This document shows, piece by piece, positions 33,661 through 52,130 of a DNA stretch of 64,000 nucleotides. The stretch lies in the NCBI RefSeq assembly GCF_902809835.1, contig NZ_CADDWM010000011.1:310001-374000 (forward strand), read 5' to 3'. Each line of letters begins with the position of its first letter. Within the stretch, counting starts at the first letter, position 1. The notes under the pieces are model-generated. The model saw only the letters and a program-made list of their open reading frames with translations. It ran no database searches and was not told the DNA's origin. This stretch comes from Agromyces sp. Marseille-P2726. Its GTDB lineage: Bacteria > Actinomycetota > Actinomycetes > Actinomycetales > Microbacteriaceae. The position numbers and the translations under genes were made by a program.

Positions 33661-33862
33661 GGGATCTCGATACGGCCGCTTCGCTGCCTACTCGATCACC
33701 GGGGCTGCTGCGCTGCCTACTCGATCACCGGGGGGATCTCGATACGCGTCGCCTGCGGCGGCGCTACTCGATCACCGCACCGGGGCTGCTGCGCTGCCTA
33801 CTCGATCACCGGGGGGATCTCGATACGCGTCGCCTGCGGCGGCGCTACTCGATCAGCGCACC
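33661..33862. repeat. REP-like hairpin cluster A (prpB-prpC gap)
   Basis: One degenerate unit (33661-33700) and two copies of an 81-bp direct repeat (33701-33781 and 33782-33862) differing at one base. Each 81-bp copy holds a half unit plus a full unit of the form GATC-TC-GA-TAC-stem-TAC-TC-GATC, with inner stem GCGTCGCC-TGC-GGCGGCGC. The last copy abuts the prpB stop. Confidence 0.85.
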
Positions 33863-33867
33863 GGGCG

Positions 33868-34767
33868 TCAGCGGGCGATCTCGAAGTTGAAGACGCTCGT
33901 GTCGAAGTGGTTGTAGTCCTCGTAGTCGATGAGGTCGTAGAGGTCGGCGCGGTGCTGCATCTCGGGAAGCAGACGCGTGAGCGTACCGGCATCCGTCAGC
34001 TCGTCGAGCGCCCGGCCCGCGGCGCCCATCGCGATGCGAAGCAGTGACACCGGCCAGATGACGATGTTCATGCCCACGTCGGCCAGCTGCTGCGCGGTGA
34101 ACAGCTCGCTCTTGCCGAACTCGGTCATGTTCGCGAGCAGCGGCACGTCGACCGCCGCCCGGATCGCCGCGAACTCCTCGAGCGACCGCATCGCCTCGGG
34201 GAAGATCGCGTCGGCACCAGCATCCACGAGTGCCTTGGCCCGGTCGACCGCGGCGCCCAACCCGTCGACCGCGGCGATGTCGGTGCGCGCCATGATCAGG
34301 AAGTTCCGGTCGCGTCGCGCGTCGACGGCCGCCCGGATGCGCTTGATCGCGGTGTCCTGATCGACCACGGCCTTGCCGTCGAGGTGGCCGCAGCGCTTGG
34401 GGTTGATCTGGTCCTCGATGTGGGTGCCGGCGAGCCCGGCATCCTCGAGCGTCTGAATCGTGCGGGCCACGTTCATCGGCTCGCCGAACCCGGTGTCGGC
34501 GTCGATGATCGCGGGCAGCTCGGTCATCCGCGCGATCTGCTGGCCGCGTCCGGCGACCTCGGTGAGCGTCGTCAGGCCGATGTCGGGCAGCCCGAGGTCG
34601 GCCGAAAGCACGGCACCCGAGATGTACACCCCCTCGAAGCCCTTGCGCTCGATGAGCCGCGCCGAGAGCGGATTGAACGCGCCCGGGAACCGCAGCAGCT
34701 CGCCCGTCGCGAGTCGCTCGCGGAACAGGCGCCGCTTCTCGGCGGCCGGGGTCTGCGAATACAGCAT
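33868..34767 (-). CDS. prpB: methylisocitrate lyase
   Basis: A 299-residue lyase of the isocitrate lyase superfamily: the catalytic loop KRCGH is present, with DADTGFGEPMNVARTI and GTHIEDQINP upstream. It splits 2-methylisocitrate into pyruvate and succinate. AGGAGA lies 6-7 nt before ATG 34767. It sits between repeat clusters A and B inside the prp operon. Confidence 0.94.
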   Translation of the reverse strand: MLYSQTPAAEKRRLFRERLATGELLRFPGAFNPLSARLIERKGFEGVYISGAVLSADLGLPDIGLTTLTEVAGRGQQIARMTELPAIIDADTGFGEPMNVARTIQTLEDAGLAGTHIEDQINPKRCGHLDGKAVVDQDTAIKRIRAAVDARRDRNFLIMARTDIAAVDGLGAAVDRAKALVDAGADAIFPEAMRSLEEFAAIRAAVDVPLLANMTEFGKSELFTAQQLADVGMNIVIWPVSLLRIAMGAAGRALDELTDAGTLTRLLPEMQHRADLYDLIDYEDYNHFDTSVFNFEIAR

Positions 34768-34797
34768 CTGCGAATCTCCTTCTCTCGTCGGTCACCC

Positions 34798-35010
34798 GGT
34801 CTCGATACGCCGCTTCGCGGCTACTCGACCACCGGTTGGCATCAGGTCACCCGGTCTCGATACGCCGCTTCGCGGCTACTCGACCACCGGTTGGCTCGTC
34901 GGTCACCCGGTCTCGATACGCCGCTTCGCGGCTACTCGACCAGCAGCCGTACGCCGCTTCGCGGCTACTCGACCAGCAGCCGTACGCCGCTTCGCGGCTA
35001 CTCGACCAGC
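34798..35010. repeat. REP-like hairpin cluster B (prpD-prpB gap)
   Basis: Three full units (34798-34833, 34853-34888, 34909-34943) of GGTC-TC-GA-TAC-GCCGC-TTC-GCGGC-TAC-TC-GACC and two shorter 33-bp tandem units from about 34944 to 35008. The cluster fills the 252-bp gap between prpD and prpB. Confidence 0.85.
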
Positions 35011-35019
35011 AGCTGCACA

Positions 35020-36546
35020 TCAGAACAGTCCCTTCGGCGCCGGGGCGTCGGTGAGCACGCCCCGCTGGGCCACGATCGAGAGCTCGCGAACCTCGTCGGC
35101 GGTGAGCTCGGGCAGGCGCTGGGCGAGGCCGAGGAACCGCTCGATCTCCTCGGGGCTCAGCACCGGCTCGGCGAGGATGCGGAACTTGCGCACGTAATCC
35201 TCGCGAGCGAAGGGCCGGGCCCCGAGCGGGTGCGCGTCGGCCACGGCGATCTCGTCGACGAGCTCGGTGCCGTCGGTGAAGGTGATGACCACGCGCCCGC
35301 CGAACGCCTTCTCGTTCGGGTCGTCCGAGTGGTAGCGGCGCGTCCACTCGTCGTCTTCGGCGGTCGTGACCTTCTGCCACAGCTCGACCGTGTCGGGGCG
35401 GTTGGCGCGCTCGGGCGCGTACGACTTCACGTGGTGCCATCCGCCGTCCTGCAGCGCGACCGCGAAGATGTACGGGATCGAGTGGTCGAGCGTCTCGCGG
35501 GATGCCGCGGGGTCGTACTTCTGCGGATCGTTCGCGCCCGACCCGATCACGTAGTGCGTGTGGTGACTCGTGTGCAGCACGATCGATTCGATGTTCGCCG
35601 GGTCCGCGGCATCCGGTCGCTCATTGTGCAGCTTGCGGGCCAGGTCGATCCACGCCTGGGCCTGGTACTCGGCCGAGTGCTCCTTGGTGTACGAGTCGAG
35701 GATGCCGCGCTTGGCCTCGCCCGGCGCCGGCAGCGGCACGGCGTACGAAGCATCCGGACCATCGAGCAGCCACGCGATGAAGCCGTCTTCACCCTCGTAG
35801 ATCGGCGACGGGCTCGTCTCGCCGCGCATGGCCCGGTCGACGGCCTCGACGGCCATCTTCCCGGCGAATGCGGGGGCGTGCGCCTTCCACGTCGAGATCT
35901 CGCCCTTGCGGCTCTGTCGCGTCGCGGTCGTCGTGTGCAGGGCCTGTCCGACCGCCTGGTAGATCGTCTCGACGTCGAGTCCGAGCAGCGTGCCGATGCC
36001 CGCGGCCGCGCTCGGCCCGAGGTGTGCGACGTGGTCGATCTTGTGCTTGTGCAGGCAGATCGCCTTCACGAGGTCGATCTGGATCTCGTAGCCCGTCGCG
36101 ATGCCGCGCACGAGCGCGCGGCCGTCGGCGCCGACGTGCTGCGCAACCGCCAGGATCGGCGGGATGTTGTCGCCCGGGTGCGAGTAGTCGGCCGCGAGGA
36201 ACGTGTCGTGGTAGTCGAGCTCGCGCACCGCCACGCCGTTCGCCCAGGCCGCCCACTCGGGGCTGCTGCGGCGCTCGAGTGCGGTGCCGAAGATCGTCGC
36301 GCCAGCGCCGCCGACCGAGACCGCGTGGTCGAGGGCCTGCTGACGCGCGGCGCTCACGGGGGCACGGGTGAGGGATGCCGCAGCCACCGCCGCGTTGTCG
36401 ATGACGCGGTTGATGATCATGTCGACGACCTCGGCCTCGACCTCGACCGGGTCGGCGGCGACCTCGGCGATGCGCCAGGCGAGCTGCCCTTCGCGCTGCA
36501 GGTCTTCTTCGCTGCGGTGGACTCGGAGGTCGTGCGTGATGGTCAT
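35020..36546 (-). CDS. prpD: 2-methylcitrate dehydratase
   Basis: A 508-residue MmgE/PrpD family enzyme: [18 protein letters not shown] near the start, [28 protein letters not shown] and [21 protein letters not shown] in the core, and a C-terminal domain with [17 protein letters not shown]. It dehydrates 2-methylcitrate to methylaconitate. The ATG at 36546 overlaps the stop of the GntR gene (ATGA), so regulator and enzyme are translated together. Confidence 0.94.
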
Positions 36547-37196
36547 GCTGCTCCCTGTTCGGTGTGTGAGCCCTCGAGCGAGGTGAGGATGCTCGTCAGT
36601 GCATTGTGGAGGTGGACGTGCGTGGCGTGGGCGGCGAGTTCGGCGTCGCGCGCGGCGATGGCCGACGCGATGACGCGGTGTTCGGCGACGGATGCCGCGA
36701 GCCGGTCGGGATTGTCGCGAGCGAGCCGGCGGACCCGCACCAGGTGGGTGCGGATCGTGCGCAGCGCCGCGATGAGGTAGTCGTTGTCGACGGAGGCGTC
36801 GAGCATCGCGTCGAACCGTGCGATGAGGGCGTAGTACGCGTCGAGTCCCTCTGCCCCAGAGAGGTTCGCCTTCGCGAACTCGTCGGCGATCGCCGCGAAG
36901 GTGGCGGCATCCGCACGGGCTGCCGCCAGCCGGGCCGCCGTCTCCTCGAGCGCGCGGCGAACCTCGAACAGCTCCCGGATGTCGCCGGCGTCGAGGTCGC
37001 TCACGACGGTGACGCGCGGCGACTGCTGCACGACGAGCCCGTCGGCGGCCAATCGGCCCAGCGCTTCGCGGAGCGGGGTTCGGCTCACGCCGAGACGGGT
37101 CGACTGCTCGACCTCCCCCAGCACCGTGCCCGGCGCGAGCGCGCCCGACTGGATCTCATCGAGGAGCGTCGCGTACGCGCGATCGCTTGCCCGCAT
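36543..37196 (-). CDS. GntR-family regulator of the prp operon
   Basis: A 217-residue FCD-type GntR regulator: winged helix in the first 75 residues ([41 protein letters not shown]) and a helical effector domain. I chose ATG 37196 because GGAGG lies 7 nt upstream; an upstream in-frame start at 37214 has none. Being first in the operon, it probably represses its own promoter and is released by a methylcitrate-cycle intermediate. GTATAC sites just upstream match typical FCD operators. Confidence 0.88.
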
Positions 37197-37223
37197 GCGT
37201 CTACCTCCGTTCATCTTCAGCTA

Positions 37224-37283
37224 GTGTATACACAAATCCGCGCTCGACCGCGAGATGGGAAATGAGAAGCCCTGTTCGTATAC
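37224..37283. promoter_or_regulatory. two GTATAC operator candidates for the prp regulator
   Basis: GTGTATACAC (37224-37233) is a perfect 10-bp palindrome, and GTATAC recurs at 37278-37283 within CGTATACAA. FCD-type GntR proteins often bind TGTATACA-like sites. Both lie within 90 bp of the regulator start. Confidence 0.6.
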
Positions 37284-37370
37284 AAACTCAGTTCCCGCGA
37301 GACCGCCCCAGCGCCGTGCTCAGGAGTTGCCGCGGGGGTCCGGTCGCTCGAAGTGGGTGTACCGGCCGAT

Positions 37371-37523
37371 GGACTCCTGAAAACAAGGACGCTTTCTGCT
37401 TCCTTGTATCGCTCTCCCGTGTCCCCGTTTCGCTCCCCGGCATCCTTGTTCGATCTCGCGTGTCCTCGTTTCACTCTCCCGTCCGCTTGTTTCGCTCTCC
37501 CGTGTCCTTGTTTTCAGGAGTCC
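37371..37523. repeat. 153-bp element with 20-bp inverted ends and 21-nt internal repeats
   Basis: GGACTCCTGAAAACAAGGAC (37371-37390) is perfectly inverted at 37504-37523. Between them run about five imperfect 21-nt repeats near TCCTTGTTTCGCTCTCCCGTG. The rest of the 485-bp gap (37215-37699) shows no gene and no other structure that I can support. Confidence 0.8.
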
Positions 37524-37699
37524 GGGGGGAGCACAGGTTCTCGGTCTCGCTCGAGTCGGCGGGAGTTCGCCGAGGTGGCGAACCCGGCAGATCGTGCATA
37601 CGTGCGGCATCGCGACCGCGCAGAATTCCGATCTCGAATGCGCGCGGATGCGACCGCGCGGGGGCGCCGCGGCCCGAACGGTACGAGCGGACGCCGCGA

Positions 37700-39181
37700 C
37701 TACGCGGTGAGTTCGAGCTGCTTCGCGGTGTCGGCGAGCGACGCCGACGCCGTCGCCGCGTCGAGCGAGAGCTTCGTGCCGTAGCTCGGGATCATCTGGC
37801 GGAGCTGCGGCTCCCACTCCGGGAGGCGGTCGGGGAAGCAGCGCGCGAGCACGTCGAGCATGATCGGCGCGGCCGTGGACGCGCCCGGCGAGGCACCCAG
37901 GAGCCCGGCGATCGTGCCGTCGGCACCCGTGATCACCTCGGTGCCGAACTGCAGCACGCCGCCCTTCTCGGGGTCGCGCTTCATGACCTGCACGCGCTGG
38001 CCGGCGGTGATGAGCTCCCAGTCGCGATCTTTGGCGGTGGGCATGAACTCGCGAAGCGCCTTCATCTTCTTGGCCCGCGACGCGAGCACCTCTGAGACCA
38101 GGTACTTCACCAGGTCGAAGTTGCGCAGGCCGACCTGGATCATCGTGCCGATGTTGTGGAAGCGGATCGAGCCCGGCAGGTCCAACCACGTGCTCATCTT
38201 CAGGAACTTCGGCGTGAACCCGGCGTACGGGCCGAACAGCAGCGCGGTCTCACCGTTGACCACACGCGTGTCGAGGTGGGGCACCGACATGGGCGGGGCG
38301 CCGACCGCGGCCTTGCCGTAGACCTTCGCCTGGTGCTGGGACACGATCTTCGGGTTCGTCGTGCGCAGGAACTGCCCCGAGATCGGGAAGCCGCCGATCC
38401 CCTTGATCTCGGGAATCCCCGAGTGCTGCAGCAGCGCGAGGGCGCCGCCTCCGGCGCCCACGAACACGAACTTCGCGTTGACGACCTTGGGCGTCTGGCC
38501 GACGGTGTGCCGCACACGGAGCCGCCACGTTCCGTCTTTCTTGCGCCGGCGAAGCCACGTCACCTGGTGGTTCGTCAGCACGGATGCCCCGCGACGCTCG
38601 AGGTCTTCGAAGAGGTACTTCGTGAGCGCCCCGAAGTCGACGTCGGTGCCCGACTCGACGCGGGTCGCGGCCACCTTCTGGTTGGGATTGCGCTTCTTCG
38701 CCAGCATCGGAGTCCACTCGGCGATGCGCTCGAGGTCTTCGGTGTACTCCATGTCGGGGAACAGCGGCTCGTCTTTCAGGGCCGCGACCCGCTTGCGCAG
38801 GTATTCGATGTTCGCCTCGCCCTGCACGAACGTCATGTGCGGGGTGGAGTTGATGAAGTTGTGCGGTTCGGGCAGGGCACCAGTGGCGACGAGGTAGGCC
38901 CAGTACTGCCGACTGATCTGGAACTGCTCGTTGATCTGCACGGCCTTCGTCGCGTCGACGGTGCCGTCAGCTGCCTCGGGCATGTAGTTCAGCTCGCAGA
39001 GGGCGGCGTGACCGGTGCCGGCATTGTTCCACGCGTTCGACGACTCCTGCGCGACCTCGCCGAGACGCTCGTAGACGCGAATGCTCCAGTCGGGCTGCAA
39101 CCGCGAGATCAAGGAGCCGAGCGTGGCGCTCATGATGCCCCCGCCGATGAGCACGACGTCGACGGATTCCTCTGAAGTCAC
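37700..39181 (-). CDS. mqo: malate:quinone oxidoreductase
   Basis: A 493-residue FAD enzyme that oxidises malate to oxaloacetate and passes electrons to menaquinone at the inner face of the membrane. DVVLIGGGIMSATLGSLI is the FAD loop; ESSNAWNNAGTGHAALCELNYMP and GTDVDFGALTKYLF are family blocks, and PGASTAAPIMLDVL lies near the end. GTG at 39181 has no strong ribosome site. It supplies the oxaloacetate that PrpC consumes. Confidence 0.95.
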   Translation of the reverse strand: MTSEESVDVVLIGGGIMSATLGSLISRLQPDWSIRVYERLGEVAQESSNAWNNAGTGHAALCELNYMPEAADGTVDATKAVQINEQFQISRQYWAYLVATGALPEPHNFINSTPHMTFVQGEANIEYLRKRVAALKDEPLFPDMEYTEDLERIAEWTPMLAKKRNPNQKVAATRVESGTDVDFGALTKYLFEDLERRGASVLTNHQVTWLRRRKKDGTWRLRVRHTVGQTPKVVNAKFVFVGAGGGALALLQHSGIPEIKGIGGFPISGQFLRTTNPKIVSQHQAKVYGKAAVGAPPMSVPHLDTRVVNGETALLFGPYAGFTPKFLKMSTWLDLPGSIRFHNIGTMIQVGLRNFDLVKYLVSEVLASRAKKMKALREFMPTAKDRDWELITAGQRVQVMKRDPEKGGVLQFGTEVITGADGTIAGLLGASPGASTAAPIMLDVLARCFPDRLPEWEPQLRQMIPSYGTKLSLDAATASASLADTAKQLELTA

Positions 39182-39293
39182 GATTTCAGTCTAGGTGAGT
39201 CGTCATGGTGGCCTCGCGCGGGTGCCATCGCGCGGGTAGCATCGCGCGGCCGTGCCGGCGAGTGCAACGGATGCCGCGACATCCGCCCGCTCG

Positions 39294-39764
39294 TTACCGC
39301 CGCTCTTCGACCTCGCCGCCGTCGAGCTGCGGCATGCCCCGCTCGTCGAGCGGCCAGAACGGGTTGTGGGCGAACTCCCACAGGTTGCCGTCGGGATCGG
39401 CGCCGTACCCGCTGTAGCCGCCCCATTCAGTCTCTTCGGCGGGCTTCGTGATGCGCCCGCCGGCCTCGCGCCAGTCGGCGAGCGCACGATCGACCTCGTC
39501 ACGGGAGTCGAAGTTGATGGCGAGCGCGACGCCGCGGAAGGGCGGAGCCGGCGGTGCGGCATCCGTCTGCTCGGCGACGCCGGCGTCGACGGCGAGCTCG
39601 GCACTCGACCAGAGGGCGATGACCGGGCCTGGTGTCGTGAAGAACGTCGTCCCCTCGACGGAGTGCGTCGATTGGCGCCAGCCGAGGCGGCGGTAGAACT
39701 GCGTGGCGGCCGCCACATCGGCGACGCCGAGCGTCACGAGGGTGAAGCGTTGTGCGATGGGCAT
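39294..39764 (-). CDS. VOC-family (glyoxalase-like) protein
   Basis: A 156-residue vicinal-oxygen-chelate protein: FTLVTLGVADVAAATQFYRRLGW, then a second half ending GYGADPDGNLWEFAHNPFWPL, where the DPDGNLWE motif carries the metal-binding Glu. The ATG at 39764 is chosen because the first motif starts just after it, although its ribosome site is weak. Likely a glyoxalase-type or antibiotic/metabolite-binding protein. Confidence 0.82.
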   Translation of the reverse strand: MPIAQRFTLVTLGVADVAAATQFYRRLGWRQSTHSVEGTTFFTTPGPVIALWSSAELAVDAGVAEQTDAAPPAPPFRGVALAINFDSRDEVDRALADWREAGGRITKPAEETEWGGYSGYGADPDGNLWEFAHNPFWPLDERGMPQLDGGEVEERR

Positions 39765-39796
39765 GCGGCGAGTGTAGAGCGCGCCGCCGACAGGCA

Positions 39797-40213
39797 TCAG
39801 AGGGCCGCCACTCCCCCGGCGATGAGGCCGACGCCGGCGGTGATGAGCGAGGCCGTCAGCACGATCGCTCCCGCCCACAGCAGCATGATGAGCCGATTGG
39901 GGCGCTGCGGATCCTTGCCGATCACCGAGAGGAAGAACCCCGCGGGCATGAGGATCGCCGCGATCGGCACGCCGACTCGCGCGAACCAGAGCCAGAATCC
40001 GTCGAGCGCGGAGTGGTCGATGACGCCGAGGATCGCGATCGACAGCACGAGCAGCACCGCCGCGTGCGCGTGACCCGCGCGGAAGAAGCTCGTCTGCAGG
40101 CGATTCGCCGGCACGTGCCCCCGCACCACGCGGGTGAGGAAGTAGCCGCCGCTCTCGACGGTGACCAGCGCGAGCAGCAGGATGCCGATGAGGATGAGGT
40201 CTTGCGCGGGCAT
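39797..40213 (-). CDS. four-span integral membrane protein
   Basis: A 138-residue protein with four hydrophobic segments (LILIGILLLALVTVESGGYF; AVLLVLSIAILGVI; FARVGVPIAAILMPAGFFLSVI; LIMLLWAGAIVLTASLITAG) and a conserved-looking RAGHAHAAVL loop. It is divergent from the MerR gene, and the large palindrome between them suggests that it is the regulator's target. Function unknown. Confidence 0.75.
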   Translation of the reverse strand: MPAQDLILIGILLLALVTVESGGYFLTRVVRGHVPANRLQTSFFRAGHAHAAVLLVLSIAILGVIDHSALDGFWLWFARVGVPIAAILMPAGFFLSVIGKDPQRPNRLIMLLWAGAIVLTASLITAGVGLIAGGVAAL

Positions 40214-40237
40214 TGGTCGTCCTTTCAGGGACTCATG

Positions 40238-40283
40238 ATTGGATAGTGATACTCTCTAATATTAGAGAGTCGCAGTATCCAAT
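40238..40283. promoter_or_regulatory. 46-bp near-perfect palindrome, MerR operator candidate
   Basis: The core ACTCTCTAATATTAGAGAGT (40251-40270) is perfect; the outer arms extend it to 46 bp with three mismatched pairs (ATTGGATA at one end, TATCCAAT at the other). It lies in the divergent gap, 18 bp before merR. Confidence 0.8.
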
Positions 40284-40301
40284 GCAAGGGAGTCAGAGCG
40301 T

Positions 40302-40928
40302 ATGCGCATCTCCGCACTCGCCGCCGAAGCCGGCCTGCCCATCGCGACCGTGAAGTTCTACCTGCGCGAGGGCCTGCTGCATCCCGGCGTCGCGACGTCG
40401 GCGACGCAGGCCACGTACGACGACTCCCACCTGCGGCGGCTGCGAGTGATCCGCGCGCTCACCGGACCCGTCGGCCTGAGCGTGCAGCAGACGCGCATGA
40501 TCCTCGGCCTCATCGACGACCCCGGTGACGACCTCTACGCCACCCTCGGTCGGGCGGTCGGCGCCCTGCCGCCGACGGTCGACACGCGCGCGGCATCCGA
40601 CGACGACCCCGACCCGTTCCCGCGTGCGCGCGCCGCCCTCGAGGCGCTCGGGCAGGTGTACGACCCGAGCTTCGCGGCGGTCGCCCAGCTCGAGGCCGCG
40701 CTCGAGGCGGTCGATGCTGCGGGCATGCCGATCAGCGACGACCGGTTGCTCGAGTACGGCCGGCACCTCCGCGAGATGGCGGTCTACGACCTCGAGCGGA
40801 TGCCGCCAGAGCCGAACGCGGCGGTGGAGTACACGGTGCTCGGCACCGCGCTCTACGAGCCCGTGCTGCTGGCGCTGCGGCGGCTCGCGCACCAGGACGT
40901 CGCGTCGCGCCGCGATCTGGGTGCCTAG
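40302..40928 (+). CDS. MerR-family transcriptional regulator
   Basis: A 208-residue regulator with the MerR winged helix at the N-terminus (ISALAAEAGLPIATVKFYLREGLL, then YDDSHLRRLRVIRALT). No Cys-rich metal site is seen, so it probably senses an organic ligand through its helical C-terminus. AAGGGAG precedes the ATG. It is divergent from the membrane-protein gene at 39797-40213. Confidence 0.9.
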   Translation: MRISALAAEAGLPIATVKFYLREGLLHPGVATSATQATYDDSHLRRLRVIRALTGPVGLSVQQTRMILGLIDDPGDDLYATLGRAVGALPPTVDTRAASDDDPDPFPRARAALEALGQVYDPSFAAVAQLEAALEAVDAAGMPISDDRLLEYGRHLREMAVYDLERMPPEPNAAVEYTVLGTALYEPVLLALRRLAHQDVASRRDLGA

Positions 40929-40940
40929 GCGCGGCGCAGG

Positions 40941-41633
40941 TCAGAGCCCGAGCCGCTCGAGCTCCGCGTCCATGCGGCGAGCGATCTCGGCGTAGCCGTC
41001 GTCGTTCGGGTGCACCGCGTCGGCCGACATCCATTCCGGATGCCCCTGAAGCCACCGAGAGGCACCCGAGATGTAATCGGCGTCGACGTCGGCTGCGGCA
41101 TCCTCGACCATGCCGATGAGGCGATCGAGCGACGCGAGCCGCTCGTGCTGGTGCCAGAACGGCTCGACGACGATGAGCCGGGCGTCGGGAAGCTCGGCTC
41201 GCAACCGCTCGAGGTCGGCCCTGATTGCGGGCTCGAGGTCGTCGGCCTCCTCCGGCGCGTGGAACGCGTCGTTCAGGCCCATCGTGACGATCACCACGTC
41301 GGGCGGGGGTTCGTGGTCGACGATCTGGTCGACGAGGTCGCCGCCGGGCGCGAATCCCCGGTTGATGACGTATCCGAGCCCGTCCACGCTCGGGTTGAAC
41401 TCGAACCAGCCGCGCTCGGCGGCGACGATGCTCGACCATCGGTGTTCGGGCGAGCTCGCGCCCGTGCCTCGCGTGTAGGAGTCGCCGTAGAACGCCGCGA
41501 CGACCTGTCCGGGCGTCGGCGAGGCCGCCTGCCCGGGCGCGGAGGTCACCGGCATCGTGCAGGCGACGAGCGCAAGGCATCCGATCGCCACGGCGGCGAT
41601 TGCTACCGGCCTCGGGATGCCGCGACGATGCAC
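40941..41633 (-). CDS. SGNH/GDSL-type hydrolase lipoprotein
   Basis: A 230-residue exported hydrolase: signal with lipobox LVAC (Cys at about 25), block I FYGDSYTRG with catalytic Ser, GLND block III, and DAVHP near the end with the Asp/His pair. It should be a surface-anchored esterase, possibly acting on acyl groups of polysaccharide or envelope. GGAGGAG lies 8 nt before ATG 41633. Hairpin cluster C separates it from asd. Confidence 0.87.
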   Translation of the reverse strand: MHRRGIPRPVAIAAVAIGCLALVACTMPVTSAPGQAASPTPGQVVAAFYGDSYTRGTGASSPEHRWSSIVAAERGWFEFNPSVDGLGYVINRGFAPGGDLVDQIVDHEPPPDVVIVTMGLNDAFHAPEEADDLEPAIRADLERLRAELPDARLIVVEPFWHQHERLASLDRLIGMVEDAAADVDADYISGASRWLQGHPEWMSADAVHPNDDGYAEIARRMDAELERLGL

Positions 41634-41647
41634 CAGTCTCCTCCCCC

Positions 41648-41836
41648 GGTCTCGATACGCGTCCGCTTCGCGGGCGCTACTCGACCACCAGAGGCTACTC
41701 GACCGCCGAGAGCGCCGGCAGGGTCTCGATACGCGTCCGCTTCGCGGGCGCTACTCGACCACCAGAGGCTACTCGACCGCCGAGAGCGCCGGCAGGTCTC
41801 GATACGCGTCCGCTTCGCGGGCGCTACTCGACCAGC
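41648..41836. repeat. REP-like hairpin cluster C (asd / SGNH gap)
   Basis: Two full direct repeats of 74 and 73 bp (41648-41721, 41722-41794) and a third truncated copy (41795-41833). Each starts with GGTC-TC-GA-TAC-GCGTCCGC-TTC-GCGGGCGC-TAC-TC-GACC and carries an extra half unit. The last copy ends about 6 bp before the asd stop. Confidence 0.85.
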
Positions 41837-41841
41837 GAGTC

Positions 41842-42954
<1,113 letters not shown>

Positions 42955-42968
42955 TCATCTTCCAGTTT

Positions 42969-43042: not shown

Positions 43043-43098
43043 ACCGGATGTCGCGGGCGCGCCGCGTCGGATGACGGATGCCGCGGCATCCGTTCGCG

Positions 43099-44373: not shown

Positions 44374-44706
44374 CTGGGGACTCCCGGGGTGGTGGTTCAG
44401 CCGCCGGAACAGCCTGCGGCGCCAGAGGAGACAATCATACGGCGACGCGGATTCCGCTCCAGATATGTGACGGCCGCTCCGGTGATCGAGTAGCGCCGCC
44501 CGAAGGGCGACGCGCACCCCGGTGATCGAGTAGCGCCGCCCGAAGGGCGACGCGTATCGAGATCCCGACGATCGAGTAGCGCCGCCCGAGGAGCACCGGT
44601 GATCGAGTAGCGCCGCCCGAAGGGCGACGCGTATCGAGATCCCGATAATCGAGTAGCGCCGCCCGAAGGGCGACGCGTATCGAGATCCCGACGATAGAGT
44701 GCCCAC
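44374..44706. promoter_or_regulatory. 333-bp divergent gap largely filled by hairpin cluster D
   Basis: Only 44374-44480 is free of repeats and must hold the lysC promoter. No gene is seen. The rest is repeat cluster D, which ends 17 bp before the ATG of the membrane protein at 44707, so that gene's promoter and ribosome site would lie in or against a repeat. Confidence 0.6.
44481..44689. repeat. REP-like hairpin cluster D (lysC / membrane protein gap)
   Basis: Five tandem units, reversed relative to cluster A: D1 44481-44520 (truncated), D2 44521-44566, D3 44567-44597 (truncated), D4 44598-44643, D5 44644-44689. Each full unit is GATC-GA-GTA-GCGCCGCCC-GAA-GGGCGACGC-GTATC-GA-GATC. Confidence 0.85.
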
Positions 44707-45207
44707 ATGTCGGAGGCGCTCGAGGGCTGGAACGACTTCAACGTGGCGATGGTCGGCGCGACCGCCGCGCTGGCGGGCCTGCTCATCGTGGCGATGTCGG
44801 TGAACATCGCCGAGATCATGAAGTCGCCGACGCTGCCGGCGCGTGCGGCGGCGTCGATCGCGACCCTCGTGCTCGCGATCGTCGCCGGGGCGTTCGGCCT
44901 CATGCCCGGCCAGTCGGACGTGGTCTATGGCCTCGAGGTCATCGTCGCGACGGTGCTCGCCGCGACGTTCCAGTGGCACGCGGTTCAGGTGATCGCACGC
45001 ACGCCCCGTGCATCGCCGGTTCGCGGCGAGCGCATCCTGAAATCGATCGCCGGGATCGTGCCAATCGCCGCGTTCCTCGTCGGCGGAACGCTGGTTGCCT
45101 TGGGCGTGGCAAGCGTCGGACTCGTCTTCATCGGCGTCGGTTCGGTGTTCGCCATCATCGCGGCGATCCTTCTCGCGTGGGTGGTGCTCGTCGAGCTGCT
45201 TCGCTGA
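44707..45207 (+). CDS. multi-span membrane protein of unknown function
   Basis: A 166-residue protein with about five hydrophobic segments ([93 protein letters not shown]). An N-terminal [19 protein letters not shown] motif resembles small actinobacterial membrane proteins of unknown role. Its ATG lies directly after a hairpin repeat, with no clear ribosome site. Confidence 0.7.
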
Positions 45208-45340
45208 CTCTCTCTGAGAAGCGGCGGCACTCCGGCACTCCGGCACTCCGGCACCGATGTCGGAATAGGAAGTGTTCCTCCCTCGCGGACGTGGGCACCG
45301 CGCCGATAGCCTGGCAGAAGGTGGGCGGGTGAACCGCCCA

Positions 45341-45430
45341 CCAGTCGTCAGCGCAGGTCGACCTGGATCACCAGTCGTCAGCGCAGGTCGACCTGGATCA
45401 CCAGTCGTCAGCGCAGGTCGACCTGGATCA
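45341..45430. repeat. three perfect 30-bp tandem repeats
   Basis: Unit CCAGTCGTCAGCGCAGGTCG-ACCTGGATCA, repeated at 45341-45370, 45371-45400 and 45401-45430. The last unit contains the stop codon and final residues (IQVDLR) of the minus gene at 45408, so the array duplicates that gene's 3' end. Confidence 0.85.
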
Positions 45431-46535
45431 CCGCGCCGCCGCCCGCCGAGACCGAGCCGGTGGTGAGGAACGCGGAGTTGCCCCGGATCGCCACGCCGTA
45501 CGGCGCGTCGAGGTTGGCGACGACGGCCTCGTGCGTGGATCCGCCCGGCGTCACCTTTCGCAGGGAGCCGACGTGGCCGTCGAAGAAGTTGCCGTCGTCG
45601 AGCTGCACCGCGTACAGCGTGCCGCCCTTCCACGCGAGGCTCGTCACCATGGTGAGTCCGGTCGCGTACGCCGACACCTGCCCGTCGGTCGTGACCCGCC
45701 AGATCGTGGATCCGCCGGTCGGGAATGGGAAGCCGGTCAGCTGCGACACGTAGAACGCACCGTCGGGGCCGACGACGACGTCGGTGGGAACCGCCTGCGG
45801 GTTGATGAACGGCGGCGGGAACGGGAACGGGTTGGGCACCGCGGGGCCGTTGGGGAAGACCGCGACCGTGTTCTCTCCGCGGGCGCCCACCGTCGCGAGG
45901 TAGTTGCCACCGGCGTCGGTGACGGCCCAGTTCCTGGCGTTCAGCGTCGTGAAGCCGACCGCGTTGCTGTCGGCTGGCACGTTGCCGTCGGGGTTGTTCG
46001 CGACCTCGTACGCGTTGAGGTCGGCCGCGGGGGCGAGATCGGCCGCGGCCACGGGGCCGGACTTCAGCGAGCCGGTGCGCAGGGTACCGAAGCTGGCGTA
46101 CTGGGCCGGCAGACTGTCGCGCGCCGTGGCGGCACCGGCCAAGCCGCCGATGAGCACCGCGATTTCGTTGCCGCGCACGTCGACGTCGGACGCGCCGACG
46201 ACCTCACCGTTGAAGTTCAGCGCCGGGATGTCGGTCACGACGCGCCGCTGGTCGGTGCCGCGGATCTCGGTCACCGATCCGGTGAGTCCGCACACCTGGA
46301 ACTCGAGCCCGACACCGGGAAGGGGACTGCATTCGTCGGCGACGCCGGCCTCGGCGACGTAGATGCGCTGGCCGGGTCCGACCGTGAGCTGTCTCGGATT
46401 GTTGAGTCCCGTGGCGACGGTGACGGGGTCGGACGACGGCGGTGCCGCCTGCGCCGGCTGCACCGCGGCGGCGACGAGGGCCAAGCCGATGACCGCGGTC
46501 ATCACGGGCGGGATCGAACGAAGCGTGCGAGACAT
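45408..46535 (-). CDS. secreted ScyD/ScyE-like beta-propeller protein
   Basis: A 375-residue exported protein: signal peptide ending about [10 protein letters not shown], then a beta-propeller with [57 protein letters not shown] (split here by function, about 250-285) and a final [22 protein letters not shown] blade. Such ScyD/ScyE-family proteins are extracytoplasmic and of unknown catalytic role. ATG 46535 follows GGAG by 5 nt. The stop lies in a 30-bp tandem repeat. Confidence 0.8.
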
Positions 46536-46637
46536 GTTCACTCCACGAGCAGGAGGGTTCCATGCGACGGATGCCGCAGGCCTCACCCTTCCCGACGCCG
46601 CATGCCGCGGCAAGGCATTACGAGCATTCCTCACCCT

Positions 46638-46711
46638 TATTGGGGGTACCCACCCGAGCCCGTATTGGGCGTACCCACCCGAGCCCTATTTGGGAGTACC
46701 CACCCGAGCGC
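46638..46711. repeat. three 24-25-bp GTACCCACCCGAGC repeats
   Basis: Units at 46638-46662, 46663-46686 and 46687-46711 share TATTGGG-N-GTACCCACCCGAGC. They lie in the 196-bp gap before the ScyD/ScyE-like gene, and the first contains GGGTACCC. Confidence 0.75.
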
Positions 46712-46731
46712 ACCGCCGCCACGCGGCCCAC

Positions 46732-47100
46732 TCAGTGCTTCCGCGGCATATACCACTCGGTGTACTCGGTGGCGCGGCCGTCGGGGGCGAGGCGGATGAT
46801 CCAGAGGTTCAGGTAGTCCTTCTCGGCGGGATAGACCGTCTTGCCCTGCACGACGACGAACCCGGTGTCCTCGTCTTCGTGGATGACCTTCCAGTCGAAT
46901 GACCAGGTGCCCGGTTCGTCGCGGTCCTCCAGCCATCCGGCGACGATCGCCTCACGCCCGCGTCGGGGCTCGTGGTCGGGCGCAGTGAGGTAGACGGCGT
47001 CATCCGTGAAGAGGGCCCCGATCTGGCCGGGGTCGTTCGACTCCCACGCCGCGACGTACCGCTCGACCCACTGTTCTCCTGCGCTGGCCATGCGCCCCAT
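46732..47100 (-). CDS. SnoaL-like (NTF2-fold) protein
   Basis: A 122-residue cone-fold protein: WVERYVAAWESNDPGQIGALFTDDAVYLTAPDHEPRRGREAIVAGW is the typical start, with a C-terminal sheet DYLNLWIIRLAPDGRATEYTEWYM. Start either 47100 or 47091 (MASAGEQ); neither has a strong site. A small isomerase, hydratase or ligand-binding role is possible. Confidence 0.82.
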   Translation of the reverse strand: MGRMASAGEQWVERYVAAWESNDPGQIGALFTDDAVYLTAPDHEPRRGREAIVAGWLEDRDEPGTWSFDWKVIHEDEDTGFVVVQGKTVYPAEKDYLNLWIIRLAPDGRATEYTEWYMPRKH

Positions 47101-47156
47101 TCCAGTCGCGTCGGTACCCGAGCGTCAACCCCGGACATCAGGTCGCCGCGGGCGGG

Positions 47157-48716
47157 TCATGCCGCCACGGCGGAAAGCTCGAAGCGCGCGCGACCGCCGA
47201 GCCGGGGCTTCTGATGGGGATCGACGTGCGGGGGCGGGATGAACCACACCTCGCCCGGCGAGGCGGTGATCTGCCACCCGTCGCGGTGGATCATGTGATG
47301 GCAGAAACTGCAGAGCAACACTCCATTCGACAGGTCGGTGCGGCCGAGATGTCGTTCCCACCAGCGGATGTGATGAGCATCGACGTAGGCGATGTTCTGA
47401 CCGCAGCTGGCGCAGCCGCCATCGCGCTCGGCGAGGGCCAGACGTTGGGCTCGAGTGAAGAGGCGGGCCGACCGGCCGAGGTCGAGCGGCAGGCCGCCAC
47501 CGCCGAGCACGACCGGAATGAGTTCGGCATCGGCACACAGGCGTCGCGCCGTTGATGCGGCGATCGGCTGATCGATGCCGTCGACGGTCGCCACGCCGAG
47601 CCGGGAGCTCAGGGCGTCAAGATCCATCCTGACGATGACCGTGGTCTTGGCGGCTGGTGCGGGTGCAACGGTGCAACCGAGGCAGTGCCGGGCGAGTTCA
47701 GCGAGTGCGTCGGCCTGCATCTGCGGGATTGTGCGGGTGTCGGCGATCACCGAGGCGCCAGCGCCGGCGCCGGCGCCTGCCGAGTTCGCGGCCTCGCCCA
47801 CACCGTCGGTGCCTGCCGAGTTCGCGGCCTCGCCCACAGCGCCGGCGCCTGCCGAGTTCGCGGCCTCGCCGACTGCGCCGGTGCCTGCCGAGTTCGCGCC
47901 CTCGCCCGCTCCGCCGGCGTGAGAGCGGACGTCGACATCGCCATCGCGCCGACGATGGAGCGCGTCGGTCACCATTGCTTCGAGGGCTGCCTTCACAGGT
48001 GCCGCAGTCGCCGGGTCGAGGCGGGCATTCAGGAGGAGCATGCCGTTGGAGTCTTCGCGGATCGTCAGCGAGCGCTGCTGCCAGCGCTCTTCGTCGCGCG
48101 GCTCGAGGCCGTCTTGGTCGAGCCGCGCTTCGGCGAGCTTGACCGCCCGAGTCACGAGGCTGAGGCTGTTGCCGGTGGCGAACGCCACCAGCTCGGATTC
48201 GTAGCGCAGTGCCCGATCGTGATCGACGCGCGGCCGGACGCGTTCGAGCATGGCGGTGATCATGCCCGCGGCATCCGTGCTGATACTGCCCTTCTCGAGG
48301 GCGGCAGCGACGGCCGGATGCCTCGCCGGGAGCCGCTCGCCGGTGAACGAGGACCGCGACCTGGTCGACTCGCCGACCGCGATGAGCTTGGCGGCTTCAG
48401 CGGTCGTGCCGCCAGTGGATGCCGCAAGCAGGCGCACCGGGTTGTGGAAGCCCTGCTGCTTCGCGAGCCCGTCGGCACCGAACTCTGCGCTCGACCGACG
48501 CGCGACCTCGGACGCCAATCGAGCCAGCATCGCATCGGCGTCGCGTCGAAGCTGCGCAATCGCATCGGTGACCGCGACGACACCGGCGTTGCTCATCTGC
48601 TCGATCTCGCCCTGCGCATCGCCAGGCGGCGTTGAGCTGAACGCAGGCCGCGCCGCAGCCCACGCGGCACGGGCCTCATCGAGCGCCTGCTCGAGCGGCC
48701 GCAGCGGGTTCGTCAT
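47157..48716 (-). CDS. DUF222 / HNH endonuclease protein (13E12-like)
   Basis: A 519-residue actinobacterial protein: N-terminal DUF222 helical domain (EGANSAG-region excluded) and a C-terminal HNH nuclease with CASCGQNIAYVDAHHIRWWE and LLCSFCHHMIHRDGW, whose four Cys and the His residues bind zinc and metal. Between them a low-complexity linker has four 12-residue repeats GEAANSAGxGAV, encoded by 36-nt repeats at about 47780-47930. ATG 48716 follows AAGGA. The family is multicopy in many actinomycetes and may be a DNA endonuclease; its role is uncertain. Confidence 0.87.
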   Translation of the reverse strand: MTNPLRPLEQALDEARAAWAAARPAFSSTPPGDAQGEIEQMSNAGVVAVTDAIAQLRRDADAMLARLASEVARRSSAEFGADGLAKQQGFHNPVRLLAASTGGTTAEAAKLIAVGESTRSRSSFTGERLPARHPAVAAALEKGSISTDAAGMITAMLERVRPRVDHDRALRYESELVAFATGNSLSLVTRAVKLAEARLDQDGLEPRDEERWQQRSLTIREDSNGMLLLNARLDPATAAPVKAALEAMVTDALHRRRDGDVDVRSHAGGAGEGANSAGTGAVGEAANSAGAGAVGEAANSAGTDGVGEAANSAGAGAGAGASVIADTRTIPQMQADALAELARHCLGCTVAPAPAAKTTVIVRMDLDALSSRLGVATVDGIDQPIAASTARRLCADAELIPVVLGGGGLPLDLGRSARLFTRAQRLALAERDGGCASCGQNIAYVDAHHIRWWERHLGRTDLSNGVLLCSFCHHMIHRDGWQITASPGEVWFIPPPHVDPHQKPRLGGRARFELSAVAA

Positions 48717-48942
48717 GCTTCGATCCTTGCAGGGGCCACTGACATTGGTTGGTGGCGGTTCCCGCCCCTGACCGGCACTTTTCCTGTGGAGAAACCGCAC
48801 GCATGTTCACCTGTTGAGGAGGAGTCGGACCACGATCACGACCACGGGCGCGACGTTGCGGCCAGCTGAAGTTCCGGCTCGCGCCGAAATCCCTTGGACC
48901 CGCGGCCGCACGCGCCGATACCGTAGCTCAGAAGGAGGCACC

Positions 48943-49125
48943 ATGCCGATGAACGATCGAATTGTCGAACCAGGTTCCGAGACGGATCTCGCGATCGAGC
49001 GGGCGCTGGAGGCGGCGAATCTGCGCGCAGGAGATTCCGCGACATCCACCTCCGCCGTCGTGGAGGGGTGGGAACCGTCCGCCGCTGAGGCGGGCGACAT
49101 CGGTGGCGCGGTCGACGGCGACTAG
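48943..49125 (+). CDS. small acidic protein of unknown function
   Basis: A 60-residue acidic protein (IVEPGSETDLAIERALEAANLRAG, rich in Ala, Glu and Asp) with no known motif. GAAGGAGG 4 nt before ATG 48943 is among the best ribosome sites in the window and supports a real gene. It lies between the HNH gene and recR and is convergent with recR. Confidence 0.6.
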   Translation: MPMNDRIVEPGSETDLAIERALEAANLRAGDSATSTSAVVEGWEPSAAEAGDIGGAVDGD

Positions 49126-49142
49126 CTCACGTCGCCTCGCAG

Positions 49143-49739
49143 TCAGCTGACGACGCGGCGCCCTTCGAACGCACGACCGAGCGTGACCTCGTCGGCGTAC
49201 TCGAGGTCGCCGCCGACCGGAAGGCCCGACGCGAGACGTGTCACCTTGATCTCGAGCGTGGTGAGCAGGCGGCTGAGATAGGTCGCCGTCGCCTCGCCCT
49301 CGAGGTTCGGGTCGGTCGCGATGATCACCTCGTTCACGGTGCCGTCGGCGAGCCGCTGCATGAGCTGGCGGATGCGGAGCTCGTCGGGTCCGATGCCGTC
49401 GATCGGGCTGATGGCGCCACCGAGCACGTGGTACAACCCGCGGAACTCGCGGGTGCGCTCGATCGCGACCACGTCTTTCGCCTCCTCGACGACGCAGATG
49501 AAGCTCGGGTCGCGGCGGGGGTCGCGGCAGATCGAGCAGGTCTGCTGCTCCGAGACGTTGCCGCAGATCTCGCAGAACCGCACCTTGTCGCGCACCTCGA
49601 GCAGGATCTCGGCGAGACGCGTGACGTCGAAGTGCTCGGTCTGCACGATGTGGAACGCGATTCGCTGCGCCGACTTCGGCCCGATGCCGGGCAGACGCCC
49701 GAGTTCGTCGATCAGCTCTTGGACGATGCCTTCGTACAC
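49143..49739 (-). CDS. recR: recombination mediator protein RecR
   Basis: A 198-residue RecR: helix-hairpin-helix [19 protein letters not shown], zinc finger [16 protein letters not shown], and a Toprim domain with [14 protein letters not shown] and [15 protein letters not shown]. It loads RecA at gaps with RecFO. It lies 3 nt after dnaX, the conserved dnaX-recR order. Confidence 0.96.
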
Positions 49740-49742
49740 GTG

Positions 49743-52130
49743 CTATCCGCGCTCCCCGAAGCCCGGGCCGCCGGGCGCCTCGACCTCTTCGAGGAACGTC
49801 GCGCCCAGCACCTCGCGCACGACGGCCTCGCCGTACCGCTGAATGCCGCCGTCGACGGATGCCGCGGAGCGCGGACGCGCGGTCGCGGCCGGCGTCTGCG
49901 CGATGACCTCGGGTACCGGGCCGGGATCGAACGGGGGCTCGACGTCGTCGGCGGGCGGCGCGTCGACTTCGTCGGGTACTGCCTCGAGGTCGGATGCCGC
50001 GGCCGGCGCATCTGCCAGCGCCGTCGCCGTGCGCGCGCTCGAGGCCTGGCGCTGCGGGCTCCCGCCGGGTGAGCCGTTACCGCTCGAGGATGCCGGTGCC
50101 TCGGGGGTCGCCGGATCGTCCGTCGGGATCGCGACGGTCGTCCACGAGTCGACGACGCTCGCCGACGGTGGGGTGGCTGGCGTCGACGGCCGGGGCGTCG
50201 CGGGTTCCGAAGCGCTCGGGCGGGCGGGCGGTTCGGCCTCGCCGGCCTGGCTGCCGATGACCCGCGGCAGGAACTTGACCTGCACGCCGAGCACATCGGC
50301 GATGGCCGCCCGCAGCAGATCGGCGGGTTTCTGCGGGCCGGTGCCGCCTCGAAGGTCTTGCACGTCGTTCTGGCTCGGGAATCCGAGCACGAGCACGCTC
50401 TCGTCGCTGCGGTAGTCGATCACCTTGGCGGTCATGGCCGCGATCCACGCCGAGCGCTTGGTGCGCTCGAGCACTCCGAGGATCTCGGGCCACGCATCGC
50501 GGATCAGCTGTACGGTCACCGGCCCGACGGGTCGCTCCGCTGGTCGAGCGCCGCCCGCCGAAGCCGCCTCCGCGGGTCGAGTAGCGCCCGGCGCAGCCGC
50601 CTCCGTTGGTCGAGTAGCGCCCGGCGCAGCCGGACGCGTATCGAGACCAGGCTCCGCGTCTGCGACCGATGGGGTCTCGATACGCGTCGCGCTGTCGCGC
50701 GGCGCTACTCGACCACCAGACGTCGCCTCCGGCGGCGCTACTCGACCACCGCCCGGCGCAGCCGCCTCTGTTGGTCGAGTAGGGCGCGGCGAAGCCGCAC
50801 CCGTATCGAGACCAGGCTCCGCGTCTGCGGCAGATGTGGTCTCGATACGCGTCGCGCTGTCGCGCGGCGCTACTCGACCACCAGACGTCGCCTCCGGCGG
50901 CGCTACTCGACCACCGGACTCTGCACCGAGCGCTTCGCGCCCACCGGCATCCGCCGCGGCATCCGACACCCCGACGCGACGCTCGAGACGCTCGACCCGC
51001 GCGAGCGCTCCACGCTCGGTGTCGTCGGAGCTCGGCACGAGCACGCGCGCGAGCATGAGCTCGAGGTGCAACCGCGGCGACGTGGCGCCCGTCATCTCGG
51101 TGAGCGTCTGGTTCACGAGGTCGGCGACGCGCGAGAGCTCGGCCGAGCCGAACGCCGCCGCCTGCGTCGCCATTCGCGCGAGCTCGTCTTCGGGCACACC
51201 GCGCAGCACCGCTGCTGCCGCCTCGGGCGACGACGCGGCGACGACGATGAGGTCGCGCAACCGCTCGAGCAGGTCTTCGACGAAGCGTCGCGGATCTTGC
51301 CCGGTCTGCACCACCCGGTCGGCGGCGGCGAAGGCGCCCGCAGCATCTCGAGCCCCGATCGCGTCGACCACCTCGTCGAGCAGCGCGCCGTGCGTGTAGC
51401 CGAGCAGCGCGACCGCACGCTCGTAGTCGATGGTCGACCCCTCGGACCCGGCCATGAGCTGGTCGAGCAGTGACAGCGTGTCTCGCGGCGAGCCGCCGCC
51501 GGCACGCACCACCAGGGGCAGCACCCCAGGAGCGACCTCGACGCCCTCTTCGGCGCAGAGCTGCTGCACGTACTCGAGCATCGGGCCGGGCGGAACCAGG
51601 CGGAACGGGTAGTGATGCGTGCGCGAGCGGATCGTGCCGAGCACCTTGTCGGGCTCGGTCGTCGCGAAGATGAACTTGACGTGCTCGGGCGGCTCTTCGA
51701 CGAGCTTGAGCAGCGCGTTGAAGCCCTGCGGCGTGACCATGTGCGCCTCGTCGAGGATGAAGATCTTGTACCGGTCGCGCGCCGGAGCGAACACCGCGCG
51801 CTCACGCAGGTCGCGCGCATCGTCGACGCCGTTGTGCGAGGCCGCGTCGATCTCGACGACGTCGAGCGAACCGCCGCCACCCCGCGAGAGCTCGACGCAG
51901 CTGGGGCACGTGCCGCACGGGACATCCGTCGGGCCCTCGACGCAGTTCAGGCACCGCGCGAGGATGCGCGCCGACGTCGTCTTGCCGCACCCGCGCGGCC
52001 CACTGAAGAGGTACGCGTGATTGACGCGATCGGTGCGAAGCGCCGTCATGAGCGGCTCGGTCACCTGCGACTGGCCGATCATCTCGGCGAACGTCTCAGG
52101 CCGGTAGCGGCGATACAGGGCGGTGACCAC
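49743..52130 (-). CDS. dnaX: DNA polymerase III subunit tau/gamma with hairpin repeats in the linker
   Basis: A 795-residue clamp-loader ATPase. Walker A GPRGCGKT (44-51), zinc Cys 60/63 and 72/75/78, Walker B FILDEAH, and the domain III lid region precede a long Pro/Ala/Gly-rich linker (about 390-540), then a C-terminal tau domain. Residues about 404-536 are encoded by REP-like hairpins and contain a 55-residue direct duplication (165 bp: 50590-50754 and 50755-50919). The repeat reads GGRVAPRDSATRIET in one orientation and GLDTRPAAPGATRP in the other, both stop-free. GTG 52130 lacks a strong ribosome site. Confidence 0.95.
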   Translation of the reverse strand: MVTALYRRYRPETFAEMIGQSQVTEPLMTALRTDRVNHAYLFSGPRGCGKTTSARILARCLNCVEGPTDVPCGTCPSCVELSRGGGGSLDVVEIDAASHNGVDDARDLRERAVFAPARDRYKIFILDEAHMVTPQGFNALLKLVEEPPEHVKFIFATTEPDKVLGTIRSRTHHYPFRLVPPGPMLEYVQQLCAEEGVEVAPGVLPLVVRAGGGSPRDTLSLLDQLMAGSEGSTIDYERAVALLGYTHGALLDEVVDAIGARDAAGAFAAADRVVQTGQDPRRFVEDLLERLRDLIVVAASSPEAAAAVLRGVPEDELARMATQAAAFGSAELSRVADLVNQTLTEMTGATSPRLHLELMLARVLVPSSDDTERGALARVERLERRVGVSDAAADAGGREALGAESGGRVAPPEATSGGRVAPRDSATRIETTSAADAEPGLDTGAASPRPTRPTEAAAPGGGRVAPPEATSGGRVAPRDSATRIETPSVADAEPGLDTRPAAPGATRPTEAAAPGATRPAEAASAGGARPAERPVGPVTVQLIRDAWPEILGVLERTKRSAWIAAMTAKVIDYRSDESVLVLGFPSQNDVQDLRGGTGPQKPADLLRAAIADVLGVQVKFLPRVIGSQAGEAEPPARPSASEPATPRPSTPATPPSASVVDSWTTVAIPTDDPATPEAPASSSGNGSPGGSPQRQASSARTATALADAPAAASDLEAVPDEVDAPPADDVEPPFDPGPVPEVIAQTPAATARPRSAASVDGGIQRYGEAVVREVLGATFLEEVEAPGGPGFGERG
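50522..50919. repeat. REP-like hairpin cluster E inside dnaX
   Basis: At least six units in both orientations: a degenerate unit near 50541-50573, then about 50574-50605, 50606-50650, 50671-50710, 50771-50814 and 50837-50876, with half units between. A 165-bp direct duplication (50590-50754 and 50755-50919) is in frame. Stems include GCGTCCGGC-TGC-GCCGGGCGC and GGGTGCGGC-TTC-GCCGCGCCC. Confidence 0.85.

Follow-up and report, generated by a model that had tools for sequence, protein, structure and literature searches.

What are the hairpin repeats that recur in five clusters across a 64,000-nt stretch of the genome of Agromyces sp. Marseille-P2726 (hereafter the window), and what has spread them? 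An earlier note on this DNA described units of a common plan, GRTC-TC-GA-TAC-stem-loop-stem-TAC-TC-GAYC, and, from a GTAG beside the stem on the opposite strand, linked them to the REP-associated tyrosine transposases (RAYTs, or TnpA-REP) of proteobacteria, where REPs are repetitive extragenic palindromes. REPs and REPINs (REP doublets forming hairpins) are understood through their RAYT partners. The host here is a soil actinobacterium, not a proteobacterium. We found that the repeats are a REP/REPIN system by form and behaviour, and that by enzyme they are not RAYT-associated. They are REP-like in the form of the hairpin, in copy number and placement, and in having inverted doublets that are dispersed. 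The proposed link to RAYTs through GTAG was not supported.

Conserved flanks around freely varying stems

On the top strand a unit reads GGTC-TC-GA-TACG-stem-loop-stem-CTAC-TC-GACC-RSCGG, and the commonest length class has the consensus GGTC-TC-GA-TAC-GCGTCCGGC-TGC-GCCGGGCGC-TAC-TC-GACC, followed by RSCGG or similar. The pattern TCGATAC-N8..36-TACTCGA matched 16 full units in the window, compared with none in 100 dinucleotide shuffles, and 188 units (87 + 101) in the 3.56-Mb genome that contains the window (G000), compared with none for the reversed pattern. A covariance model of the kind the earlier note had called for, trained on 40 genome units that include two units of cluster D and both minus-strand units of cluster E, recovered 16 whole stretches and one partial stretch in the window, 17 in all (E-values from 2.6e-18 to 6.2e-6). 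All five clusters with their shared plan are present where they had been placed, and covariation backs the register, which has a TC bulge in the 5' arm.

The pairing of the stems was assessed in two alignments, with shuffle controls that ignore kinship of the copies. In the first (A1), consisting of 40 of the 77 distinct G000 units and restricted to a single length class, 95.8% of cells are paired compared with 81.8% after shuffling, and both sides have changed in 69 cells compared with 21.8 (standard deviation 3.4), a value reached by 0 of 500 shuffles. We gave most weight to a different control, because kinship of the copies inflates counts of both-side changes: the covariation score of A1, 0.326, drops to 0.028-0.053 once the 3' partner is shifted by 1-3 columns. 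The stems therefore covary strongly, as had been claimed. Both-side changes exceed the shuffles, but simple counts of changing pairs and of changing pair types do not (120 and 114 of 500 shuffles reach them). In the second alignment (A2), of 20 short-stem units (18 from G017, one from G019 and one from G047), there are 19 both-side-changed cells compared with 9.6 after shuffling. When 3' halves were redistributed among equally long units, the paired fraction fell from 0.83 to 0.68 in G000, from 0.86 to 0.67 in G017 and from 0.59 to 0.42 in G286, a genome of a second family; by pairing bases symmetrically, this test gives too low a value for the long G286 hairpins.

The outer arm also switches as a pair: among the 77 distinct G000 units the outer pairs are GG/CC in 37, CG/CG in 21 and GA/TC in 11, and both are Watson-Crick in 69. 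The T-G wobble reported at one stem position is real, but it is better termed a kept interruption. At position 4 (column pair 15-29) T-G occurs in 32 of the 40 aligned units, the other eight have other non-pairs, and none is Watson-Crick; across all lengths, 6 of 55 distinct inner sequences are Watson-Crick there. Among 19 distinct short stems, position 3 is unpaired in nine and position 4 in eight, often as T-C and C-T. The unpaired central spacer suggested an attC-like recombination site, a reading that was dropped.

GTAG on the opposite strand is present in 39 of the 40 aligned units, the exception having T at column 32, but it does not simply lie beside the stem, since its last G is already the first stem base. 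With that G doubling as a stem base, the units follow the rule given for GTAG REPs, which places GTAG or GTGG 0-2 nt 5' of the hairpin (PMC6006769). Flanks and pairing are conserved and the stem sequence is free, in a short imperfect palindrome of high copy number, the structural form of a REP.

Of the three-base loops, 65 of 68 in G000, 26 of 33 in G017 and 7 of 7 in G019 have the form T-N-C. Read on the GTAG strand, these become GNA triloops, and the stem interruptions become GTA/GTA internal loops and tandem G-A mismatches. DNA minihairpins whose GNA loop has a sheared G-A pair are reported to be stable (PMC6479982). These motifs point to single-stranded DNA, probably of the GTAG strand, as the recognised form. 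Predicted folding favours that strand in 51 of 51 units of G017, 24 of 24 of G286 and 6 of 9 of G019, but not in G000 (27 of 77).

Further copies in related genomes, whose absence was to have counted against the family, are plentiful. In the genus Agromyces 43 of 60 genomes carry the pattern, with up to 246 copies, and 17 do not; these searches took the first places per genome among the matches listed. A tighter pattern gave 246 copies in G022, 224 in G074, 199 in G017 and 180 in G000. Copy number can differ sharply between close relatives: G045 has 105 copies, G057 107 and G054 none, with prp loci 94-95% identical. Adding G014, which has one copy, widens the range of prp locus identity to 92-95%, and these four genomes are a natural set for tracking down the mobilising gene, since close relatives with no copies and with more than 100 are the place to seek it. 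In a sample of the phylum the pattern matched 7 of 396 genomes, and outside the genus only G286 (260 copies) exceeds one copy. In a sample of the class it matched 31 of 394, of which 19 have at least nine copies: eight come from three genera of the family to which Agromyces belongs, and the other 11 all come from a single further family, where the maximum is 297 copies (G785). G286, from this second family, has the same flank boxes and much longer hairpins. The covariance model, run on 34 of 80 prpB loci from other species (709 kb), gave five matches, all in Agromyces records (L037, L051).

Neither plasmid collections, searched with a 39-nt unit, nor phage collections, searched with one of 46 nt, gave a match at E ≤ 0.01. 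A pattern scan of IMG/VR matched at least 120 stretches, and the 80 listed have one match each; most of these matches are probably chance. Half units occur too. Isolated heads number 69 in 758 kb of G000 and 54 in 400 kb of G017, and isolated tails 33 and 18; these densities are biased by the choice of windows around listed units (forward-strand units in G017).

Doublets, dispersal and placement

Units form doublets in which a short spacer separates two head-to-head units and the ends are inverted CCGGTGGTCGAGTAG / CTACTCGACCACCGG. The head-to-head gap is 15-17 bp in 10 of 19 pairs in G000, 15-28 bp in 37 of 39 in G017 and 56 bp in 12 of 13 in G286, where tail-to-tail gaps are 20 bp in 11 of 12 pairs. 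Inverted neighbours differ in stem sequence (73 of 73 in G017, 25 of 25 in G286 and 16 of 21 in G000) and direct neighbours tend to share it (26 of 34 in G017, 24 of 30 in G000 and 1 of 3 in G286); the contrast is significant in G017 (Fisher p 3e-18) and G000 (p 1e-4). A probable reason is that identical inverted neighbours would make long perfect palindromes, which bacteria are prone to lose. By analogy, this order of units matches REP heterodimers and the mosaics known as bacterial interspersed mosaic elements (BIMEs). In G286 (L148, L153, L159) the 56-bp head-to-head and 20-bp tail-to-tail gaps make up a regular mosaic. Hairpin tips of G286 (e.g. GCTCCTTCGTCGC) are the same as short stems of G017 (L148, L153, L159).

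Insertion polymorphism is visible at the prp locus of the window. We read the prpB-prpD spacing at 29 loci, the best 29 of 59 matching genomes, of which four gave no value. The gap is -1 to 9 bp in 20 of the remaining 25, compared with 252 bp in the window, where cluster B lies in it; the outliers are a misplaced match (L319) and four gaps of 50-998 bp. G053 carries a single short unit of its own at this junction. In the window, with cluster B inserted, prpB has a GAGAAGGAG stretch at 34768-34795 that resembles a ribosome site of its own; in most relatives read, the end of prpD and the start of prpB are only -1 to 9 bp apart.

The clearest case is in G019, where a complete doublet follows a TGA stop codon at a distance of 8 nt; G047, a genome 93% identical at the prp locus, lacks it. 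This doublet of about 95 bp, spacer included, recurs at four further places in G019 with 91-93% identity, the matches stopping at the tails. We read the site on both strands at 30 loci, the best 30 of 59 matching genomes: the doublet is in G019 only, and 28 of the 29 others have no full unit. In G050 a single, slightly degenerate unit follows that stop codon, G068 has a lone tail motif, and the remaining 27 loci have nothing. The flanks of the site are 58-77 bp apart in G047, G066, G059, G040, G069 and G041, compared with 160 bp in G019; in G003 they are about 1.9 kb apart, and this genome was not counted among those with adjoining flanks. Because the doublet recurs with its spacer and is present or absent between relatives, it is a dispersed unit, as in REPINs, with single units occurring alone as well.

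We examined placement among genes in three genomes, including 484 kb of G000 with the window, using a simple purpose-made gene finder based on codon usage. Of 82 clusters, 75 are intergenic. Divergent gaps hold 5 of these 75 and make up 187 of all 665 gaps (Fisher p 1.2e-5), and convergent gaps hold 25 of the 75 and make up 122 of the 665 (p 0.003). Distances to gene 3' ends have medians of 31-88 bp, depending on the genome. The clusters are thus mostly intergenic and avoid divergent promoter gaps, as expected of REPs. The other seven clusters lie within open frames, including those of dnaX, a LigD-type ligase and uroporphyrinogen decarboxylase; known REPs, too, have units in replication and repair genes (PMC3733652). 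Frames with units include a LigD-type ligase (L126:9668-12154), uroporphyrinogen decarboxylase (L117:9010-10164), enoyl-CoA hydratase (L113:6790-7776) and a LysR regulator (L119:8374-9546), and the Pfam domain match of the last three falls into two stretches.

The search for a mobiliser and competing explanations

The earlier note had asked for a Y1-type transposase flanked by the same hairpin, and none was found in the genome of the window or in the genus. The Pfam profile Y1_Tnp (PF01797) has no match in G000, none in the 60 genus genomes at E ≤ 0.001 and none in ten high-copy genus genomes at E ≤ 10. As a control, the same search found matches in 5 of 14 control genomes (E. coli and four others); among 40 relatives it gave one match, in a genome of another family. 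The search of the second family covered one genome, G286 (260 copies), where the only match scored 12 bits within a 1512-aa frame, below the cut-off. A RAYT gene flanked by the repeat, which accompanies GTAG REPs and REPINs, was accordingly not found here. One survey reports that Actinobacteridae carry HUH transposases of subclass 1.1 only (PMC6006769).

We consider it probable that the clusters are a REPIN-like non-autonomous hairpin element of Actinomycetota, present in two families and moved by a factor other than a recognisable RAYT or Y1 transposase. The most likely process would be hairpin-guided copying of the doublet by a trans-acting factor, with recombination or replication slippage amplifying the units locally. 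Such a factor would recognise the hairpin as single-stranded DNA, probably of the GTAG strand, and would copy or move the doublet at replication forks; arrays would then grow locally through slippage or recombination, and the surviving insertions would be those at gene 3' ends, in promoterless gaps and in tolerant linkers. A more specific proposal, which we put forward tentatively, is that Actinomycetota possess a hairpin-mobilising system of their own, in which a RAYT-unrelated enzyme reads the structure of the GTAG strand (flank boxes, interruption and GNA loop) and not the stem sequence, and so spreads doublets of REPIN type in two or more families of the class. A REPIN-like element of this kind would account for an intergenic repeat that is common in Agromyces and in a second family of the class. 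The hairpin population is here separated from RAYT, as the family is large and apparently active although its host group is reported to lack TnpA-REP genes.

Several observations weigh against this interpretation; its weakest points are the enzyme, which was not found, the reliance on one clean junction, and the strand. Searches by profile, by neighbouring genes and by element ends found no mobilising gene for the units. In three genomes, 145 of 1139 predicted genes overlap a unit or lie no more than 300 bp from one; an all-against-all BLAST of these showed no candidate, and the only recurring mobile gene near units, judged by eye from the printed families, was an IS110 transposase. Only one clean doublet junction was read: in 0.4 Mb of G019, four of seven clusters were aligned with G047, and two of these four are too diverged to place the ends. 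No target-site duplication was seen by eye at that one site. In G000, folding is predicted to be more stable for the GTAG strand in 27 of 77 units and for the other strand in 50, and the G286 hairpins have no three-base TNC loops in the parse used. Paired changes could also arise, in the absence of selection, by template-switch repair of quasi-palindromes.

The alternative that survives best, which we still regard as unlikely, is that the doublet is a miniature inverted-repeat transposon whose 15-bp inverted ends are read as duplex DNA by a DDE transposase. It would account for the inverted CCGGTGGTCGAGTAG ends and for the dispersal of the doublet as a whole, but lone single units stand at junctions too, the clean site shows no target-site duplication, and a model of duplex ends has no need of covarying stems. 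A scan of about 2.4 Mb in five genomes for outward-facing isolated tails 0.5-5 kb apart returned only three places; one is an IS110 insertion, and a parent transposon was established at neither of the others.

It also seems improbable to us that the units are genuine GTAG REPs mobilised by a RAYT, one either recently lost or too diverged for the profile. The GTAG beside the stem, the inverted doublets and the homing of IS110 on the tails are all as in proteobacterial REPs (PMC1525189, PMC3116915). Set against these are the failure of PF01797 in all 60 genus genomes, in ten high-copy ones even at the permissive threshold, and well-paired stems that vary from species to species, unlike what decay after loss would leave.

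The comparison with known systems shows the same mixture. GTAG-tagged REPs (Di Nocera et al., 2013; PMC3733652) likewise are hairpins of 20-40 nt with a one-sided GTAG and sub-families with alternative complementary stems, form inverted dimers and arrays, prefer unidirectional or convergent gaps, and have units in replication and repair genes. Their hosts are Proteobacteria, Cyanobacteria, Chloroflexi and the PVC group, and 'actinobacteri' does not occur in the text of that paper; the Agromyces units differ from them in having the last G of GTAG in the stem, conserved boxes on both sides (TCGATAC and TACTCGA-CCRSCGG) and stems that vary widely in sequence and length. REPINs (Bertels and Rainey, 2011; PMC3116915) share the inverted doublet with its spacer as the dispersed unit, but are paired with RAYTs, of which none was found for the Agromyces units. 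CGTC-tagged REPs (PMC3733652) provide a precedent for REP families with no dedicated transposase, but they carry CGTC instead of GTAG, and clusters are rare among them and common in Agromyces. The family is unnamed in the mostly open literature that we searched on sequence fragments, on REP or RAYT with Actinobacteria, on Agromyces or Microbacterium palindromes and on IS110 with REP. RepRanger (2025; PMC12306157) counted palindromes in three other Actinomycetota, with no Agromyces, Microbacteri- or Nocardioides in its text, and the A. aureus genome paper (PMC5217419) has palindromic repeats only in an abbreviation list, for CRISPR (clustered regularly interspaced short palindromic repeats).

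We give still less credence to a host regulatory hairpin, such as a transcription terminator, an mRNA 3' stabiliser, or a site for gyrase or a nucleoid-associated protein, kept by selection at each place. Position near gene 3' ends, avoidance of divergent gaps and the ability of either strand to fold would suit such a role, and individual copies may have been co-opted by the host for regulation. As a general explanation it is contradicted by the absence of the units from the same junctions in most relatives read and from 17 of 60 genus genomes, by their occurrence within the open frames of dnaX, the LigD-type ligase, uroporphyrinogen decarboxylase and others, and by the lack of any Rfam match in the window at gathering score.

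The IS110-family element of G000 can be dismissed almost entirely as the maker or mover of the units: all four copies found through Transposase_20 lie in unit tails, but because Transposase_20 is missing from several copy-rich genomes (G022, G074 and G019), and is present in low-copy G056 and G068, the distribution rules it out. The element is a guest and not a driver. All four copies are inserted at one fixed point of the tail, with GCTACTCGAC before and CGACCGG after, and a copy scanned with Pfam contains PF01548 and PF02371. In every copy the leader contains GCTACTCGAC, identical to the target, from 40 bp inside the left end; by analogy with the bridge RNAs described in PMC11208160, it resembles a left target guide. 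Other bacteria, too, have IS110 elements that target REPs (PMC1525189). Like the Agromyces copies, the known examples (IS621, ISPpu9 and ISPa11; PMC1525189, PMC11208160) lie within a hairpin repeat; the Agromyces case differs in its actinobacterial host and repeat and in having the conserved tail as target.

Clusters and neighbouring genes

The features of the window and the IS110 copies are collected in the table. No tRNA was found in the window.

Table 1. Hairpin clusters and adjoining genes of the window, and the IS110-family element of the same genome.
Feature	Position	Strand	Details
Citrate synthase gene	32428..33621	-	Adjoins cluster A
Cluster A	33661..33862	+	Between citrate synthase and prpB genes; full units 33663-33697, 33735-33773, 33816-33854; half units
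prpB-type gene (phosphoenolpyruvate mutase/isocitrate lyase family)	33868..34767	-	Between clusters A and B
Cluster B	34798..35010	+	Between prpB and prpD genes; full units 34798-34830, 34853-34885, 34909-34941; two further units lack the TCGATAC arm
MmgE/PrpD gene	35020..36546	-	Adjoins cluster B
Cluster C	41648..41836	+	Units 41648-41686, 41722-41760, 41795-41833; stems identical
Cluster D	44481..44689	-	Upstream of open reading frame at 44707; units 44524-44564, 44601-44641, 44647-44687; partial unit 44490-44514
dnaX open reading frame (DNA polymerase III gamma/tau)	49743..52130	-	795 aa; Pfam DNA_pol3_delta2, DNA_pol3_gamma3, DNAX_ATPase_lid
Cluster E	50522..50919	.	In dnaX reading frame; units 50608-50648 (-), 50673-50714 (+), 50773-50813 (-), 50838-50879 (+); two inverted doublets with 32-bp gaps; half units
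IS110-family element	L121:8785-10104		Copies in L123, L331, L332 (C1, C13, C15 of the genome)

The dnaX frame stays open across cluster E, which spans about 130 codons.

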